From Sulfurimonas sp. C5 (GTDB taxonomy: Bacteria; Campylobacterota; Campylobacteria; Campylobacterales; Sulfurimonadaceae), in contig NZ_JARXNQ010000001.1 in assembly GCF_029872055.1 (NCBI RefSeq), forward strand, positions 1 through 64,000: 64,000 bases of DNA, read 5' to 3'. Below, piece by piece: positions 53,889-60,979 of this stretch. Under the pieces are notes generated by a model that made no database searches, was not told where the DNA came from, and was given only the letters and a program-made list of their open reading frames with translations. The translations under genes and the position numbers were made by a program. The number at the start of each line of letters is the position of its first letter. Position 1 is the first letter of the stretch.

Positions 53889-53913
53889 AGTTTAATTATA
53901 TATAATATTTTGC

Positions 53914-53919
53914 TATAAT
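53914..53919 (+). promoter_or_regulatory. Promoter -10 of the ABM-aldolase-LsrK cassette
   Basis: Perfect TATAAT with an upstream TTTTGC, 24 bases before the ATG at 53944. It is the only clear plus-strand promoter until at least mqnE. Confidence 0.6.
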
Positions 53920-53943
53920 TGCTTAAAAAAAGTGAATAAAAAA

Positions 53944-54231
53944 ATGGCAATTACAAAAAGAGTAACATTTATAGCTAAAGAGGGCAGTGAAGGAAAAATG
54001 AAAGAGCTCCTGGCTGCAATGGTAAAACCTAGTAAAGCTGAAAAAGGGTGTGTGTTTTACGAGATAGTGCAATATAAAGAGAATCCAAGAAAATTCATGG
54101 CAGTGGAAACTTGGGAAGATGAAGCTGCACTTGACGGACATAGAGCATCAGCTCATTATGCAGTATACAAATCATCATATGAACCGTATTGTGAAGATAA
54201 GTATACTAATGAATTAGAAGTTTTAGGATAA
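53944..54231 (+). CDS. ABM-domain protein (LsrG / quinol-monooxygenase-like)
   Basis: 95 residues forming one antibiotic-biosynthesis monooxygenase (ABM) domain: KRVTFIAKEGSEGKMKELL, GCVFYEIVQYKENP, FMAVETWEDEAALDGH and SAHYAVYKSS with the His typical of the fold. ABM proteins include LsrG, the phospho-AI-2 isomerase, and YgiN. Since an LsrK homologue lies two genes downstream, an LsrG-like role is a reasonable guess. GTG 53932 is an alternative start; neither has a clear ribosome site. The aldolase gene follows 3 bases later. Confidence 0.75.
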   Translation: MAITKRVTFIAKEGSEGKMKELLAAMVKPSKAEKGCVFYEIVQYKENPRKFMAVETWEDEAALDGHRASAHYAVYKSSYEPYCEDKYTNELEVLG

Positions 54232-54234
54232 AGA

Positions 54235-55398
54235 ATGAAAAATTTATGGGATGAGAAAGCGGCTGCAAAATGTGTGGATCAATTAGATTTTAGAGTATAT
54301 ACATCAAATCTTTTAGGTGCAAATGACGAGTTGGTATTGCACGGCGGTGGGAATACATCTGTAAAAATAGAAGATATCCTTTATGTCAAAGGAAGCGGCT
54401 GGGACCTAAGCAATATTCAAAGAGAAGGCTTCTCTCCCGTAAAACTGGATACTCTCTTAGAAATGGCTCAACTTGAAAAACTTAGTGACAGTGATATGGT
54501 GAACTTACAACGTGCAGCAATGACAGATAAAGAAGCACCAAATCCTTCTGTTGAGGCTATTTTACATGCGCTTATTCCATGTAAGTTTGTTGATCATACG
54601 CATGCAGATGCAGTTGTGACTATTTCAAACTCGAAAAATGGCAAAGAGTATATTGAAAAACTCTATCCAAATTTTTTAATAGTTGATTATGTGATGCCTG
54701 GATTTGTTTTAGCTCATAAAATATATGTGATGACAAAAGGGCTTGACTGGGATAGTATTGAGGGAATTATATTACATAATCACGGTATAATTACTTTTGA
54801 TGACGATGCGAAAAAGTCGTATGACAAGATGATTGAAGCAGTAACTAAAGCTGAAGAGTTTTTAGATGAAAATGCTGCACTTGAGATCCAAAGAAGTTAC
54901 GAGCACAGCGGTTGTGATATTGCAAAGATTACAAAAACTTTTTCTAAATACAAAGGATATGAAGTTCATATCAATATCAACCAGTCACCTTTGGCATCAT
55001 ATTATGCATCACAACCAAATTTAAAAGAGTTTGCATCCCGTGGTGTTTTAACACCTGAACATATCATTAGAACAAAAAGAGCACCGCTTGTGATGGAAGA
55101 TACAAATCTTGAAGCGGGAATTGAAAATTTCATTAAAGAGTATGAAGAATATTATATGCGTTATGAAAATGGTGAAATTATGCTGAACCCTGCACCAAAC
55201 TATATGATCATAAAAAATCTTGCCGTTATCTCTTTTGGCGCAACGAAAAAAGAGTCGGATATTGTCAATGATATTGTAGAACATACAATGAAGGCAGTAT
55301 TAAGAGCTGATAAACTTGGCGGCTACGTAAGTATTAGCGAAAAAGATAGTTTTGCTATGGAATACTGGGAATTAGAACAAGCAAAATTAAAAAAATAA
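54235..55398 (+). CDS. Class II aldolase, SDR-less form of the RhaD/YuxG-type protein
   Basis: 387 residues. The class II aldolase domain (about 5-235) has GGGNTS (37-42), Glu107 in PSVEAILH, and zinc ligands HTH (121-123) and HNHG (181-184). The following part (about 240-387) matches the linker of long bifunctional aldolase/short-chain dehydrogenases (TPEHIIRTKRAP, NPAPNYMI, GGYVSISEKDSF, EYWELEQAK) and stops where their dehydrogenase domain would begin. It probably cleaves a phosphorylated keto-sugar. Its stop overlaps the kinase start (TAATG), so its substrate is likely the kinase product. Confidence 0.78.
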   Translation: MKNLWDEKAAAKCVDQLDFRVYTSNLLGANDELVLHGGGNTSVKIEDILYVKGSGWDLSNIQREGFSPVKLDTLLEMAQLEKLSDSDMVNLQRAAMTDKEAPNPSVEAILHALIPCKFVDHTHADAVVTISNSKNGKEYIEKLYPNFLIVDYVMPGFVLAHKIYVMTKGLDWDSIEGIILHNHGIITFDDDAKKSYDKMIEAVTKAEEFLDENAALEIQRSYEHSGCDIAKITKTFSKYKGYEVHININQSPLASYYASQPNLKEFASRGVLTPEHIIRTKRAPLVMEDTNLEAGIENFIKEYEEYYMRYENGEIMLNPAPNYMIIKNLAVISFGATKKESDIVNDIVEHTMKAVLRADKLGGYVSISEKDSFAMEYWELEQAKLKK

Positions 55399-56963
55399 TG
55401 GAAAAGTATTTACTTGCCATAGATGCCGGAACAGGGAGTATCCGTGCGGTACTTTTTGATATTTTAGGAAATCAGCTTTGTGTTTCTCAGCAAGAGTGGA
55501 CACACTTGGAAGAAGAGGGTGTCCCTAACTCTATGAGTTTTGACTTTACAAAAAATTGGCAGTTCACTTGCAATTGTATCCAAGGTGTAATAGAAGCATC
55601 GAATGTGAATCCTGAAGATATTTTAGCTTTAAGTGCAACTAGTATGCGTGAGGGGATTGTCCTTTACGATAAAGATGGAAATGAGCTCTGGGGTGTAGCA
55701 AATGTAGATGCAAGAGCTTCAGAAGAAGTAAAATATTTAAAAGAAAATTTTCCGGAGATTGAAGAAAAATTTTACCAAACAAGTGGACAGACTTTTGCAC
55801 TTGGAGCACTTCCAAGGCTTTTATGGCTGAAAAACAATCGTCCTGATATTTATAAACAAGTAGCTTCTATCTCTATGATTGGAGATTGGATCTTGGCAAA
55901 ACTTTCTGGTGTAATCGCTAGTGATCCAAGTAATGGCGGTACTACGGGAATATTTAGCTTGTCTGATCGAACTTGGGATAGTTATATGGCTCAAAGCATA
56001 GGATTAAAAGATGATATTTTTCCAAAAGTGTATGAAGTTGGAGAAGTTCTAGGCAATGTAACGAAAAAAGCTTCTCAAGAGACATCTTTATCAGAAACTA
56101 CAAAAGTTGTGATGGGCGGTGGAGATGTTCAATTGGGCTCTGCCGGACTCGGTGTTGTAAAAGAGGGTGATGTAGCAGTTTTAGGCGGCAGTTTTTGGCA
56201 ACAGGTTGTGAACATTAGTTCATATGTAAAACCGCCTAAAGATATGAGTCTGCGTGTAAATCCTCATGTAGTAAATGGTCTTTCGCAAGCTGAGGGGATT
56301 ACATTTTTCTCTGGACTAATCATGCGCTGGTTTAGAGATGCTTTTTGTGATTTGGAAAAGTTAGAAGCAGAAAAAGAAAATAGAGATGTCTATGAACTTT
56401 TAGAAGAAAAAGCTAAAAATGTACCTGCCGGTTCTTACGGGATATTACCAATTTTTTCAGATGCTATGAAATACGGAAAATGGTACCATGCAGCTCCAAG
56501 CTTTTTAAACTTGAATATTGACAGTACTAAATCAAATAAAATTTCAATGTTTCGATCACTGGAAGAAAATGCCGCAATAGTTTCAAGTATTAATTTGGAA
56601 AATATAAAAAAATTTAGCGGTGTAGAATTTGATACTATTGTTTTTGCTGGCGGTGCAAGTAAAGGTACTCTATGGTCACAGATCTTAGCAGACGTGACCG
56701 GATATACGGTAAAAATTCCAAAAGTGACTGAGGCAACTGCACTTGGTGCTGCTATGGCGGCAGGTGTTGGGGCTGAAATATATGAAAACTTAGTAGTGGC
56801 ATCAGAAAAATTGGTTCAATGGGACAAAACATATACTCCTAACTTTGAAAATAAAAAAGTTTATGATGAGCTAAAAGAAAAATGGCAAAGTGCTTATGAA
56901 GAGCAATTAAAGCTAGTTGATGATAATATCACGACTTCTATGTGGAAAGCTCCTGGAGTATAA
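55398..56963 (+). CDS. lsrK: Autoinducer-2 kinase (FGGY family)
   Basis: 521 residues, FGGY carbohydrate-kinase fold. It matches E. coli LsrK as I remember it along the whole length: DAGTGSIRAVLFD (9-21), SMREGIVLY, NVDARAS, GGGDVQLGSAGLG (240-252) with the likely catalytic Asp243, GGSFWQQVVN, RVNPHVV, RWFRDAFC, FAGGASKGTLWSQILADV, and the ending TTSMWKAPG. LsrK phosphorylates AI-2 (DPD) in the cytoplasm. No lsrACDB, lsrR or lsrF is nearby. Another five-carbon keto-sugar as substrate is possible. Confidence 0.83.
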   Translation: MEKYLLAIDAGTGSIRAVLFDILGNQLCVSQQEWTHLEEEGVPNSMSFDFTKNWQFTCNCIQGVIEASNVNPEDILALSATSMREGIVLYDKDGNELWGVANVDARASEEVKYLKENFPEIEEKFYQTSGQTFALGALPRLLWLKNNRPDIYKQVASISMIGDWILAKLSGVIASDPSNGGTTGIFSLSDRTWDSYMAQSIGLKDDIFPKVYEVGEVLGNVTKKASQETSLSETTKVVMGGGDVQLGSAGLGVVKEGDVAVLGGSFWQQVVNISSYVKPPKDMSLRVNPHVVNGLSQAEGITFFSGLIMRWFRDAFCDLEKLEAEKENRDVYELLEEKAKNVPAGSYGILPIFSDAMKYGKWYHAAPSFLNLNIDSTKSNKISMFRSLEENAAIVSSINLENIKKFSGVEFDTIVFAGGASKGTLWSQILADVTGYTVKIPKVTEATALGAAMAAGVGAEIYENLVVASEKLVQWDKTYTPNFENKKVYDELKEKWQSAYEEQLKLVDDNITTSMWKAPGV

Positions 56964-57012: not shown

Positions 57013-58047
57013 ATGGATAGAATAGATTTTAATACAGCACTAAAACTTTACGATGAAGATCTCTTTGTTTTAGGGGAAATGGCAGATAAAAAACGTAAAG
57101 AGCTTCATGGCAATAAAACATATTTTAATATTAACCGCCATATTAATCCGACAAATATTTGTGCTGATGTATGTAAATTTTGTGCCTATGCTGCCAATAG
57201 AAAAAATCCAAATCCTTATACAATGACACATGAAGAGATTATGGAAATTGTAGATAAGATTGTAGAAGATGGTGTAAAAGAGGTTCATATTGTTTCAGCT
57301 CATAACCCAGATACTGGAATAGAGTGGTATCTTGATATATTTAAAAAGATTAAAGATAAATATCCACAATTACATGTAAAGGCACTAACTGCAGCAGAAG
57401 TAGACTTTTTAGCACGTCATTACGGAAAAACATACGATGAAATTTTAGATATGATGGTTGATGCTGGAGTAGATTCTATGCCAGGCGGTGGAGCAGAGAT
57501 TTTTGATGAAAAAGTGCGTGATTATATTTGTAAAGGGAAAGTAACATCCGATCAATGGATAGAGATCCATAAAAAATGGCATGAACGCGGTAAAAAATCA
57601 AATGTAACGATGCTGTTTGGTCATGTAGAGAATCGTGAGCACAGAATAGATCATATGATGCGTATCCGTGCATTACAAGATCAAACAGGTGGATTTAACT
57701 GCTTTATCCCACTTGTGTATCAAACAGAAAACAATTACCTGAAAATTGAACATCCGATTACAGCAGATGAGGTACTTCGTACTATGGCTATTTCTCGCCT
57801 TGTTCTTGATAACGTACCGAATTTAAAAGCATACTGGGTGACTTCTACCGTAAATCTTGCACTTGTTGCTCAAGAGTTCGGAGCAAATGACTTAGACGGG
57901 ACTATTCAAAAAGAGTCTATCAATTCAGCTGCTGGAGCAAAGAGTGCTAACGGAATCGAATTAGACGAGTTCGTAGGCCTTATTAAAGATAGCGGGTTTA
58001 CACCTGTCGAGAGAGACAGTATATATAATGAAATTAAGGTGTGGTAA
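57013..58047 (+). CDS. mqnE: Aminofutalosine synthase (radical SAM)
   Basis: 344 residues. Cluster motif C50-x3-C54-x2-C57 (CADVCKFC). The segments MPGGGAEIFDEKVRDYIC, SNVTMLFGHVEN, QDQTGGFNCFIPL and LKAYWV with FGANDLDGT identify MqnE, not the related MqnC or CofH. It joins SAM-derived adenosyl to the carboxyvinyloxybenzoate made by MqnA, for menaquinone. It is shorter at the C-terminus than some homologues but complete. It follows lsrK after 49 bases and abuts the next glycosyltransferase gene. Confidence 0.92.
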   Translation: MDRIDFNTALKLYDEDLFVLGEMADKKRKELHGNKTYFNINRHINPTNICADVCKFCAYAANRKNPNPYTMTHEEIMEIVDKIVEDGVKEVHIVSAHNPDTGIEWYLDIFKKIKDKYPQLHVKALTAAEVDFLARHYGKTYDEILDMMVDAGVDSMPGGGAEIFDEKVRDYICKGKVTSDQWIEIHKKWHERGKKSNVTMLFGHVENREHRIDHMMRIRALQDQTGGFNCFIPLVYQTENNYLKIEHPITADEVLRTMAISRLVLDNVPNLKAYWVTSTVNLALVAQEFGANDLDGTIQKESINSAAGAKSANGIELDEFVGLIKDSGFTPVERDSIYNEIKVW

Positions 58048-58869
58048 TTGGAGATAACAGTTGTTATCCCTACATTTAACCGCTATGAACTTTTAAAAAG
58101 AGCAGTACAATCTGTTCTTCAACAAACTTTTCAAGCTAAAGAGATTATTGTTGTAGATGACGGTTCTACCGATGATACTTCAAGAATTCAAAATGATTTT
58201 CCTCAAATAAAATATATATATCAAGAGAATAAAGGGGTTTCTAGTGCTAGAAATCTTGGGATACAACATGCAGTATATGATTGGATTGCATTTTTGGATT
58301 CTGATGATAGATTTGTAGAGGAAAAATTAGAAAAACAAGTTGATTTTCATCAATCAAATTTAGACTGTCTAGTAAGTTATACTGATGAAATATGGATTCG
58401 GAATAATCAAGAAATAAAAATTCCAAAAAAATTTCAAAAAATCGGTCAACATGTTTTTGAAGAAAATATAGCTTACTGCAATATTGCCCCATCGTCAGTA
58501 CTTATACACAAAAATGTTTTTGAAAAAGTCGGTTATTTCGATGAAGCTTTAGAAGTATGTGAAGATTATGATTTGTGGTTAAGAATTTCTTTACAATTTC
58601 AAATTGCCTTAGTTAATGAGAAGTTGATTAGAAAATATGCGGGACATGATGATCAGCTTAGTTTTAAACATTGGGGAATGGACCGTTTTCGTATAGCTAC
58701 TTTGGAAAAATTATTACATTTAACAACAGATCAGAAAAAAATAGAAAAAATTAATCATGAACTGTTAAAAAAGTACCAATTATTATTAAAAGGTGCAATC
58801 AAATATGATAAAATACACAACATTTCAATCTACAGGAAAAAACTTGAACAGCTTAACAAGAGAGACTAA
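58048..58869 (+). CDS. Family 2 glycosyltransferase beside pglB
   Basis: 273 residues, GT-A fold: ITVVIPTFNRYELL, VDDGSTDDTS, and FLDSDDRF as the DxD site; a C-terminal helical tail follows EDYDLWLRIS. It starts at TTG 58048, the base after the mqnE stop, with AAGGTG about 8 bases before it. By location it likely builds the lipid-linked glycan used by PglB, but the sugar is not readable. Its last 26 bases overlap pglB. Confidence 0.84.
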   Translation: MEITVVIPTFNRYELLKRAVQSVLQQTFQAKEIIVVDDGSTDDTSRIQNDFPQIKYIYQENKGVSSARNLGIQHAVYDWIAFLDSDDRFVEEKLEKQVDFHQSNLDCLVSYTDEIWIRNNQEIKIPKKFQKIGQHVFEENIAYCNIAPSSVLIHKNVFEKVGYFDEALEVCEDYDLWLRISLQFQIALVNEKLIRKYAGHDDQLSFKHWGMDRFRIATLEKLLHLTTDQKKIEKINHELLKKYQLLLKGAIKYDKIHNISIYRKKLEQLNKRD

Positions 58870-60979
58870 ACTTACAATATTTTATATCCTGTTAGCATTT
58901 ATATTTTCAGTATCTATGAGAATGATTTGGGTATATCAGTTCAATGACTTCACTCCATTTAAATACAATGACCAGTTTATGATTAACACAAACGATGGTT
59001 ATTTGTGGGCAGAGGGTGCAAGAGATATTCTTGGTAATACTGTGTATAGGGAGGGGATAGATCAAACACCTGTTACAAGTGCCCCTTCTATACTTACAGC
59101 ACTTTTTGCTAAAGTTTTACCATTTTCTTTTGAAAGTATTATATTCTATCTACCGGTTTTTCTCTCATCTTTAATTGTAATTCCTATTATTCTTATTGCA
59201 AAGCTTCTTAAAAATTTAGAGATGGGGCTTATTGCGGCAATGCTTGCATCAATTGCATGGAGTTATTATAACCGTACAATGGCAGGATATTATGATACTG
59301 ATATGCTTAATATTGTTCTTCCAATGTTTTTGCTATGGTCTATCATATGGGCTGTAAAAACAAACCAAAATATTTATCTTTTTTTGACTGCTTTAGATAT
59401 TTTACTATATCGTTTGTGGTATCCTCAAAGTTACTCTTTGGAATTTGCATTTTTTGGACTTATATTAGCATATACACTTCTCTTTGACCGTAAAAATATT
59501 TTTAACTATAAACTGCTGGCTATTATGATGTTTGCTATGATGGGACTTGATGGTTATACACGTCTGGCATTGGTGGCAATTTCATATTATATTTTTACAC
59601 AAGAGAAGTTTAATAAATATGGGTATTATCTTTTAGGTATTGCTGTTATTACTTTTTTTGTTACAGGTGGTTTTAATCCGATTTGGATGCAGTTAAAAGG
59701 ATATGTCTTCAGTGAAAGCGTAAGTGTAGAACAAGAAGGCTTAGGACTCCACTTTTTTACAGTCATGCAAACTGTAAGAGAAGCTGGGAAAATTCCATTT
59801 GAAATGTTTGCCAACCGTATCAGTGGGCATACTTTAGTATTTATTATATCCTTTATCGGATATCTATACTTACTTTTCAAACATAGAATAATGCTGTTGT
59901 CACTTCCTCTTGTAGGGCTTGGCTTTTTAGCCTATATTGGAGGATTAAGATTTACAATCTATGCTGTACCTATCTTGGCTTTTGGTGTGGCATTTTTAAT
60001 TACTGAGATTGCTGCAAAACTTCCAACCACTAAGTTGAAATTTCTTGCAATGATAGCCTTAACATTAGTAATGTTATATCCAAATTATAAGCATATAGAT
60101 TCGTATAAAATACCGACTGTATTTAATAATGATGAGGTAGATGTTTTGAAACAACTCTCTCAAATTGCAACACCAAATGATTATACTGTAGCCTGGTGGG
60201 ATTACGGATACCCAATTAGATATTATGCAAATACACAAACTTTAATTGACGGTGGAAAACATAGTGGTGCTGTTAACTTTCCTGTGAGTTTTATATTAAC
60301 ACATCCTCAAGATGTTGCAGCGAAAATGGCACGTTTAGATGTGGAATACACTGAAAAAAATTTAATGAGAAATAAAAAAATTAAAGATGGAGAACTCGAA
60401 GGTAATGTCTCTACAATATCGAATATTGAACAAATGACAAGAGATTATGGATTTAAAGATACTAATCAATTCTTAGCATCTTTAAAACAAGATATAAAGT
60501 TACCTGTGCAAACAACAGATATATATTTATACCTACCATTTAGAATGACAAATATTTATCCAACAATTACATATTTTTCAAATCTCAATCTAATGAATGG
60601 AGTAAAATACCAAGATCCTTTTTTCTATATGAGTAGAAATTTTCAAGAGATTGGCAATAAAATAGTGTTGGGAGAAAATATATTTTTAGATAAATCTAAT
60701 TTAAGCATTACTATCGGAAATAAATCAGTACCTATTAGAAGATTTGTTAGAACTGCTTATTCTCAAGATAAAAAACTTCATGTTCAATCTCAGCTTGTTA
60801 ATTTTACATCAAATATGAATCTTATATATTTGGCTTCTTATAATGTTTTTATAGTTTTAGATGAAGCAACATACAATTCGACTTTTGTTCAGTTATTTAT
60901 TTTGGAAAACTATGATAAAGAGCTTTATGATATGGTTATTAATACTCCAGGTGCAAAAGTATTTAAATTAAAAATATAA
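58844..60979 (+). CDS. pglB: Oligosaccharyltransferase for N-linked protein glycosylation
   Basis: About 712 residues, STT3 family. Thirteen or so membrane helices (to about 425), then a periplasmic domain with the WWDYG motif followed by PIRYY. NDGYLWAEGARD and YYDTDM hold the metal-binding acids, and the protein ends KVFKLKI as does Campylobacter PglB. It moves a lipid-linked oligosaccharide to Asn in sequons. TTG 58844 is chosen as start: AGGA is 6 bases upstream and the distance to the first helix matches C. jejuni PglB. GTG 58793 and ATG 58805 are longer alternatives. Confidence 0.93.
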   Translation: MNSLTRETKLTIFYILLAFIFSVSMRMIWVYQFNDFTPFKYNDQFMINTNDGYLWAEGARDILGNTVYREGIDQTPVTSAPSILTALFAKVLPFSFESIIFYLPVFLSSLIVIPIILIAKLLKNLEMGLIAAMLASIAWSYYNRTMAGYYDTDMLNIVLPMFLLWSIIWAVKTNQNIYLFLTALDILLYRLWYPQSYSLEFAFFGLILAYTLLFDRKNIFNYKLLAIMMFAMMGLDGYTRLALVAISYYIFTQEKFNKYGYYLLGIAVITFFVTGGFNPIWMQLKGYVFSESVSVEQEGLGLHFFTVMQTVREAGKIPFEMFANRISGHTLVFIISFIGYLYLLFKHRIMLLSLPLVGLGFLAYIGGLRFTIYAVPILAFGVAFLITEIAAKLPTTKLKFLAMIALTLVMLYPNYKHIDSYKIPTVFNNDEVDVLKQLSQIATPNDYTVAWWDYGYPIRYYANTQTLIDGGKHSGAVNFPVSFILTHPQDVAAKMARLDVEYTEKNLMRNKKIKDGELEGNVSTISNIEQMTRDYGFKDTNQFLASLKQDIKLPVQTTDIYLYLPFRMTNIYPTITYFSNLNLMNGVKYQDPFFYMSRNFQEIGNKIVLGENIFLDKSNLSITIGNKSVPIRRFVRTAYSQDKKLHVQSQLVNFTSNMNLIYLASYNVFIVLDEATYNSTFVQLFILENYDKELYDMVINTPGAKVFKLKI

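Follow-up and report, generated by a model that had tools for sequence, protein, structure and literature searches.

LuxS is widespread, and autoinducer-2 (AI-2), a side product of this enzyme, is frequently taken to be a signal of universal use. A survey of receptors found that most luxS-bearing bacteria are without a known AI-2 receptor (PMC2561040). The established chemistry of the Lsr system proceeds in three steps, in which LsrK makes phosphorylated DPD (P-DPD), LsrG isomerises P-DPD to P-TPO, and LsrF transfers an acetyl group to CoA and thereby frees DHAP (PMC8016206). In E. coli LsrK, the putative DPD site is made up of T21, S91, M92, R93, D253, V254, F276, Q278, E308 and I310, and Glu122 contacts His15 of HPr (PMC8016206). 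Another described pathway with a related final enzyme is the DHAP shunt, consisting of MtnK, MtnA and Ald2 (PMC10986504).

Complete lsrACDB-lsrR-lsrK operons are found in S. meliloti (on pSymB), Thalassospira marina, Paracoccus aminophilus and Alloyangia pacifica. In all four of these alphaproteobacterial operons an ABM protein, 41-54% identical to E. coli LsrG, is encoded after lsrK, and the gene that follows lsrB, in the place of lsrF in E. coli, encodes a class II aldolase of 413-416 amino acids. The lsr cluster on a Lacticaseibacillus plasmid has lsrF instead of the class II aldolase. The locus in Sulfurimonas sp. C5 described below was taken for an AI-2 processing cassette in a preliminary description, and with its kinase in the LsrK family this is most likely what it is.

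Layout and distribution of the cassette

The window is the whole 64,000-nucleotide stretch of Sulfurimonas sp. C5 DNA that was analysed, and the cassette consists of three genes, all on the plus strand. The first (53944..54231) encodes a protein of 95 amino acids with the ABM fold (PF03992, 57.7 bits), for which a GTG at 53932, in frame, is an alternative start. The second (54235..55398) encodes a class II aldolase of 387 amino acids with an Aldolase_II domain, corresponding to the aldolase part of PRK08324-type proteins and lacking an SDR domain. The third (55398..56963) encodes the predicted LsrK, an autoinducer-2 (DPD) kinase of 521 amino acids. The gap between the first two genes is 3 bases and the last two overlap by 1 base, and the open reading frames are thus packed exactly as had been claimed. 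The 55 bp between the divergent glnD and the cassette (53889..53943, plus strand) constitute the sole intergenic room for a promoter shared by the three genes; TATAAT occurs here at 53914-53919 and the single promoter named in the preliminary description is presumed, and a promoter scan gave promoter-like matches at the level of shuffled sequence (16 versus 12.6 ± 3.8).

Downstream, the cassette is flanked by mqnE (57013..58047, plus strand), encoding the radical-SAM enzyme aminofutalosine synthase (NF006276, 640 bits, cut-off 560). This gene was found no more than 1.5 kb from the LsrK gene in 17 of 56 loci and is a neighbour conserved within the genus; it is not proposed as a member of the pathway. 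Further downstream, at 58793-60979 and beside a family 2 glycosyltransferase, a multi-pass membrane protein of 728 amino acids is encoded, which we take to resemble oligosaccharyltransferases of the STT3/PglB type.

LsrK was detected in 62 of 397 high-quality Campylobacterota genomes, representing 20 genera. The aldolase was detected in 64 of the 397, being present in all 62 genomes with LsrK and in 2 of the 335 without it (Fisher's test, 7e-71, on genomes that are not phylogenetically independent). This co-occurrence holds also when the genes are located on different contigs or kilobases apart. Within the 200 genomes of the family to which the window belongs, LsrK and the aldolase were found together in 141, LsrK alone in 3 and the aldolase alone in 10. 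The survey of gene order that had been suggested at the outset showed that the cassette arrangement recurs across dozens of genomes. Chance clustering of the cassette genes was considered and is rejected on account of this recurrence and of the joint presence of kinase and aldolase in 62 of the 64 carriers phylum-wide. A metagenome-assembled contig labelled Helicobacter pylori PMSS1 has ABM and aldolase genes 61-78% identical to those of the window, and this label is probably wrong.

The kinase

The kinase scored 879 bits against the NCBIfam equivalog model for autoinducer-2 kinase (NF008187, cut-off 528), the next model reaching 196 bits, and its sole close relative in the PDB is E. coli LsrK (640 bits), followed by glycerol kinase at 102 bits. 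As noticed from the start, the match to E. coli LsrK reaches the C-terminus, and it amounts to 55% identity across 519 residues. At the putative DPD site it is identical to E. coli LsrK in each of the ten residues, as are 64 of 64 LsrKs examined from Campylobacterota and Shewanella, and E. coli AraB, GlpK, RhaB, XylB and FucK share between one and four of the ten. Kinase phylogeny, named beforehand as a test that could refute the assignment, placed the window kinase inside the LsrK clade (SH-aLRT 96), with E. coli LsrK nested among other LsrKs and long outgroup branches. Judged by model, tree and predicted pocket, the window kinase is a member of the LsrK family, and its genome, which is 99.97% complete, encodes no other FGGY kinase. 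In the position of Glu122 of E. coli LsrK, the window kinase and 40 of 64 relatives have a tyrosine, and because of this replacement the control by HPr is probably not conserved.

The aldolase and the DHAP shunt

Over its whole length the window aldolase matches the N-terminal approximately 400 residues of the PRK08324/RhaD_aldol-ADH family, and it scores below every curated cut-off. Glu107, His121, His123 and His183 are invariant in 62 sequences, the three histidines being the predicted zinc ligands and Glu107 the putative catalytic residue, whose exact role is assumed. The predicted structure (pLDDT 93.6) matches the class II aldolases 3m4r and FucA and the Bacillus thuringiensis aldolase for radical-SAM products (6btd/6btg). 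The product of the second gene is by residues and fold a class II (metal-dependent) aldolase, and its sequence is of the Aldolase_II kind and not the DhnA-type class I sequence of LsrF. That an aldolase stands in the position of LsrF had been pointed out in the preliminary description, and this idea is strengthened because the four alphaproteobacterial lsr operons carry, after lsrB, a homologue of the window aldolase over its full length. It is proposed that the window aldolase takes the role of LsrF and cleaves P-TPO/P-HPD to DHAP and acetate.

In the aldolase tree, the stand-alone enzymes of Campylobacterota, the aldolase-SDR fusions and the aldolases of the alphaproteobacterial lsr operons form three separate groups. 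The window aldolase is closer to the aldolase-SDR of the DHAP shunt (53% identity) than to the alphaproteobacterial enzymes (36-37%). The fused lineage is sister to the window aldolase, sits with mtnK-mtnA in Sulfurimonas and goes with the DHAP shunt. Fusions with a full-length frame were in genomes with mtnA in 30 of 30 cases, four further genomes have short-frame fusions and a more distant mtnA, and the rule linking fusion and mtnA is one-way only. Where fusions occur in the LsrK loci of three genomes lacking mtnA, and in Shewanella, the SDR is degenerate and without YxxxK. Since the window aldolase has no SDR and that of its fused relatives is degenerate, the SDR would seem not to be needed for an LsrK-linked aldolase. 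The genome of the window has the stand-alone aldolase only and no mtnA, and the aldolase is therefore probably dedicated to the LsrK branch.

The genes for the ABM protein and LsrK, metK, mtnK-mtnA and aldolase-SDR all lie within one block in loci L081, L088 and L090, where genes handling by-products of S-adenosylmethionine of the pentose type seem to be gathered. Among relatives of Sulfurimonas, mtnK-mtnA-aldolase/SDR genes were observed in the ABM-lsrK loci L080, L081, L088, L090 and L091, with metK near in most of them, and they apparently make up a variant of the DHAP shunt with a dehydrogenase-fused aldolase. The gene directly before lsrK in Shewanella sp. UCD-KL12 encodes an aldolase-SDR fusion. 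Decay of the SDR half (no YxxxK, deletions) next to an intact aldolase half was observed in five loci, comprising LsrK loci without mtnA and Shewanella.

These neighbourhoods raise the question of whether the cassette is itself a variant of the DHAP shunt, salvaging 5-deoxyribose or methylthioribose from radical-SAM 5′-deoxyadenosine or from MTA with an LsrK-like kinase in place of MtnK. The SDR-fused sister lineage of the aldolase beside mtnK-mtnA, the radical-SAM gene mqnE adjoining the cassette and the lack of mtnA in a genome where an alternative kinase is imaginable all agree with such salvage, which is nevertheless considered improbable, as the cassette has no isomerase gene, the putative DPD pocket of LsrK is intact and LsrK and the ABM protein are kept alongside a complete mtnK-mtnA-aldolase/SDR set in L080, L081 and L090. 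The occurrence of the aldolase type in true lsr operons and the adjacency of luxS also speak against it.

luxS and the origin of DPD

The genome search that had been called for revealed luxS in the same genome and gave no match for LsrF or LsrB with the E. coli proteins as queries, in searches run without a positive control. The neighbourhood of the cassette was inspected for the transporter (LsrACD) and LsrR, and neither was found in or beside the cassette. In the phylum luxS is near-universal, and it was present in 62 of 62 genomes with LsrK versus 288 of 335 without LsrK (Fisher's test, 4e-4, uncorrected for relatedness). Of 56 loci, 20 had luxS at a distance of 3.5 kb or less from the LsrK gene. 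The cassette is adjoined by luxS in Sulfuricurvum and some of its related genera, with lsrK and luxS in one orientation and the ABM and aldolase genes between them in the other (lsrK> <ABM <aldolase luxS>). Two small open reading frames of about 100 and 160 amino acids follow luxS at L003:1492-2809 and in the luxS loci of Sulfuricurvum, in differing contexts, and these pairs were matched by size and position only.

Uptake and destruction of the AI-2 of other species (quorum quenching), or the use of exogenous AI-2 as a carbon source, had been put forward in the preliminary description. Such a route would require LsrK and an enzyme for cleavage, and the alphaproteobacterial lsr operons, which have these enzymes, also encode by annotation an importer of AI-2, but a cell with its own luxS, no LsrB detected in the genome and neither transporter nor LsrR in or beside the cassette leaves uptake and quenching unsupported and, like salvage by a DHAP shunt, improbable. 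Given the luxS of the cell itself, the lack of a detected LsrB and the luxS genes adjoining the cassette in several genera, among them Sulfuricurvum, it is simpler to suppose that the cell disposes of DPD of its own making. Catabolism of a deoxyhexose through rhamnulose- or fuculose-1-phosphate, brought to mind by the annotation of the aldolase family as rhamnulose-1-phosphate aldolase/dehydrogenase and by the kinase-aldolase pairs typical of RhaB/RhaD and FucK/FucA, is very improbable with a kinase far from RhaB and FucK in both tree and pocket, no sugar isomerase or transporter gene adjacent, and linkage to luxS.

The ABM protein

The first protein was said to have the same ABM fold as LsrG, which agrees with PF03992 and with the AlphaFold model (pLDDT 95.5), whose TM-score of 0.92 to E. 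coli LsrG (3qmq) is equalled by other ABM proteins and is not specific to LsrG. Its residues E33, E55, H66, H71 and Y72 are found also in all LsrG compared, and its identity to E. coli LsrG is 26%. Against the LsrG model NF007791 the protein scored 24.5 bits, below the cut-off of 135. In the ABM tree it belongs to a clade apart from LsrG, with one branch going with LsrK-type loci and the other with aldolase/luxS loci. At L097:6856-7494 two different ABM paralogues lie back to back, the first towards lsrK and the second towards the aldolase and luxS.

A role as P-DPD isomerase, equivalent to that of LsrG and carried out by a separate ABM subfamily, is proposed from gene position and is plausible; of the earlier view of an LsrG-like enzyme, the support from context stands and membership in LsrG itself does not. 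Given a score below the LsrG cut-off and a fold that fits many ABM proteins equally, the isomerase step is uncertain; it could proceed spontaneously, be of another kind or not occur at all. Of the route proposed below, the ABM protein is the weakest link.

Discussion

With a probability of about 0.72, the cassette serves to catabolise, in the cytosol, the DPD/AI-2 made by the LuxS of the cell itself, with LsrK, the ABM protein and the aldolase catalysing the steps leading to DHAP and acetate; we infer the individual reactions, the formation of acetate and the origin of the DPD. LuxS of the same cell would supply DPD, and LsrK would phosphorylate it at C5 to give P-DPD, trapped in the cell. The ABM protein would, as LsrG does, isomerise P-DPD to P-TPO, the hydrated 3-hydroxy-2,4-pentanedione-5-phosphate, whereupon the zinc-type class II aldolase would cut the same C-C bond as LsrF and yield DHAP and an acetyl unit. 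This unit would most simply be released as acetate, through attack by water (retro-Claisen) instead of formation of acetyl-CoA.

P-HPD, the dehydrated form of P-TPO, is CH3-CO-CHOH-CO-CH2-OPO3, and 5-deoxyribulose-1-phosphate is CH3-CHOH-CHOH-CO-CH2-OPO3, the sole difference being a keto group versus a hydroxyl at the carbon beside the methyl group. Since the related aldolase of the DHAP shunt acts on 5-deoxyribulose-1-phosphate, of which P-HPD is the 4-keto analogue, P-HPD may be open to cleavage by a class II aldolase as well. An aldolase that stabilises the enediolate of DHAP should cut either compound, 5-deoxyribulose-1-phosphate to an aldehyde and DHAP, and P-HPD via the hydrated ketone to acetate and DHAP. 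Cleavage without a redox partner would, on this presumed chemistry, fit the missing or decayed SDR.

The wider proposal is that a previously undescribed end route of AI-2 operates across sulfur- and hydrogen-oxidising Campylobacterota as a receptor-less recycling of LuxS-derived DPD. In this route P-HPD would be split into DHAP and acetate by retro-Claisen cleavage without CoA, the enzyme being a metal-dependent class II aldolase with an ancestor in common with that of the DHAP shunt, and the proposal is given slightly better than even odds. In the open-licence literature the cassette, as LsrK with a class II aldolase or as LsrK in Sulfurimonas or Arcobacter, was not found described. The likely function of the cassette is disposal of self-made DPD and recovery of its carbon. 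If this is true, many luxS-bearing vent bacteria would recycle the AI-2 'signal' rather than listen to it, and the cassette would give a direct and testable metabolic answer to the fate of DPD in Campylobacterota of vents and sediments. The cassette also cautions against inferring quorum sensing in these bacteria from luxS alone.

The cassette can be regarded as a variant, with neither receptor nor transporter, of the AI-2 catabolism known from Lsr systems. It has in common with the lsr systems of E. coli and Salmonella a kinase of the LsrK family, a second enzyme with the ABM fold and a C-C cleavage enzyme of the aldolase type, and differs from them in having no transporter, receptor or repressor, in a class II aldolase in place of the DhnA-type class I LsrF, in an ABM protein outside the LsrG model, in the tyrosine replacing Glu122 of LsrK and in the presence of luxS in the cassette locus in several genera of relatives. 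Compared to the bifunctional PRK08324/RhaD_aldol-ADH enzymes, the window aldolase is the aldolase part only, without the dehydrogenase half. In the DHAP shunt, as in the proposed route, a class II aldolase frees DHAP from a 5-deoxypentulose phosphate, whereas the window has a kinase of a different family, no MtnA in cassette or genome and no SDR, and the proposed substrate of its aldolase is one oxidation level above that of the shunt. The S. meliloti-type lsr operons share with the window LsrK, an ABM/LsrG protein and a class II aldolase of full-length homology in place of LsrF, but unlike the window they have a complete import set with LsrB and LsrR, and their ABM proteins are closer to E. 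coli LsrG (41-54%) than that of the window (26%). For the missing LsrF step in these operons, the class II aldolase is a candidate enzyme class.
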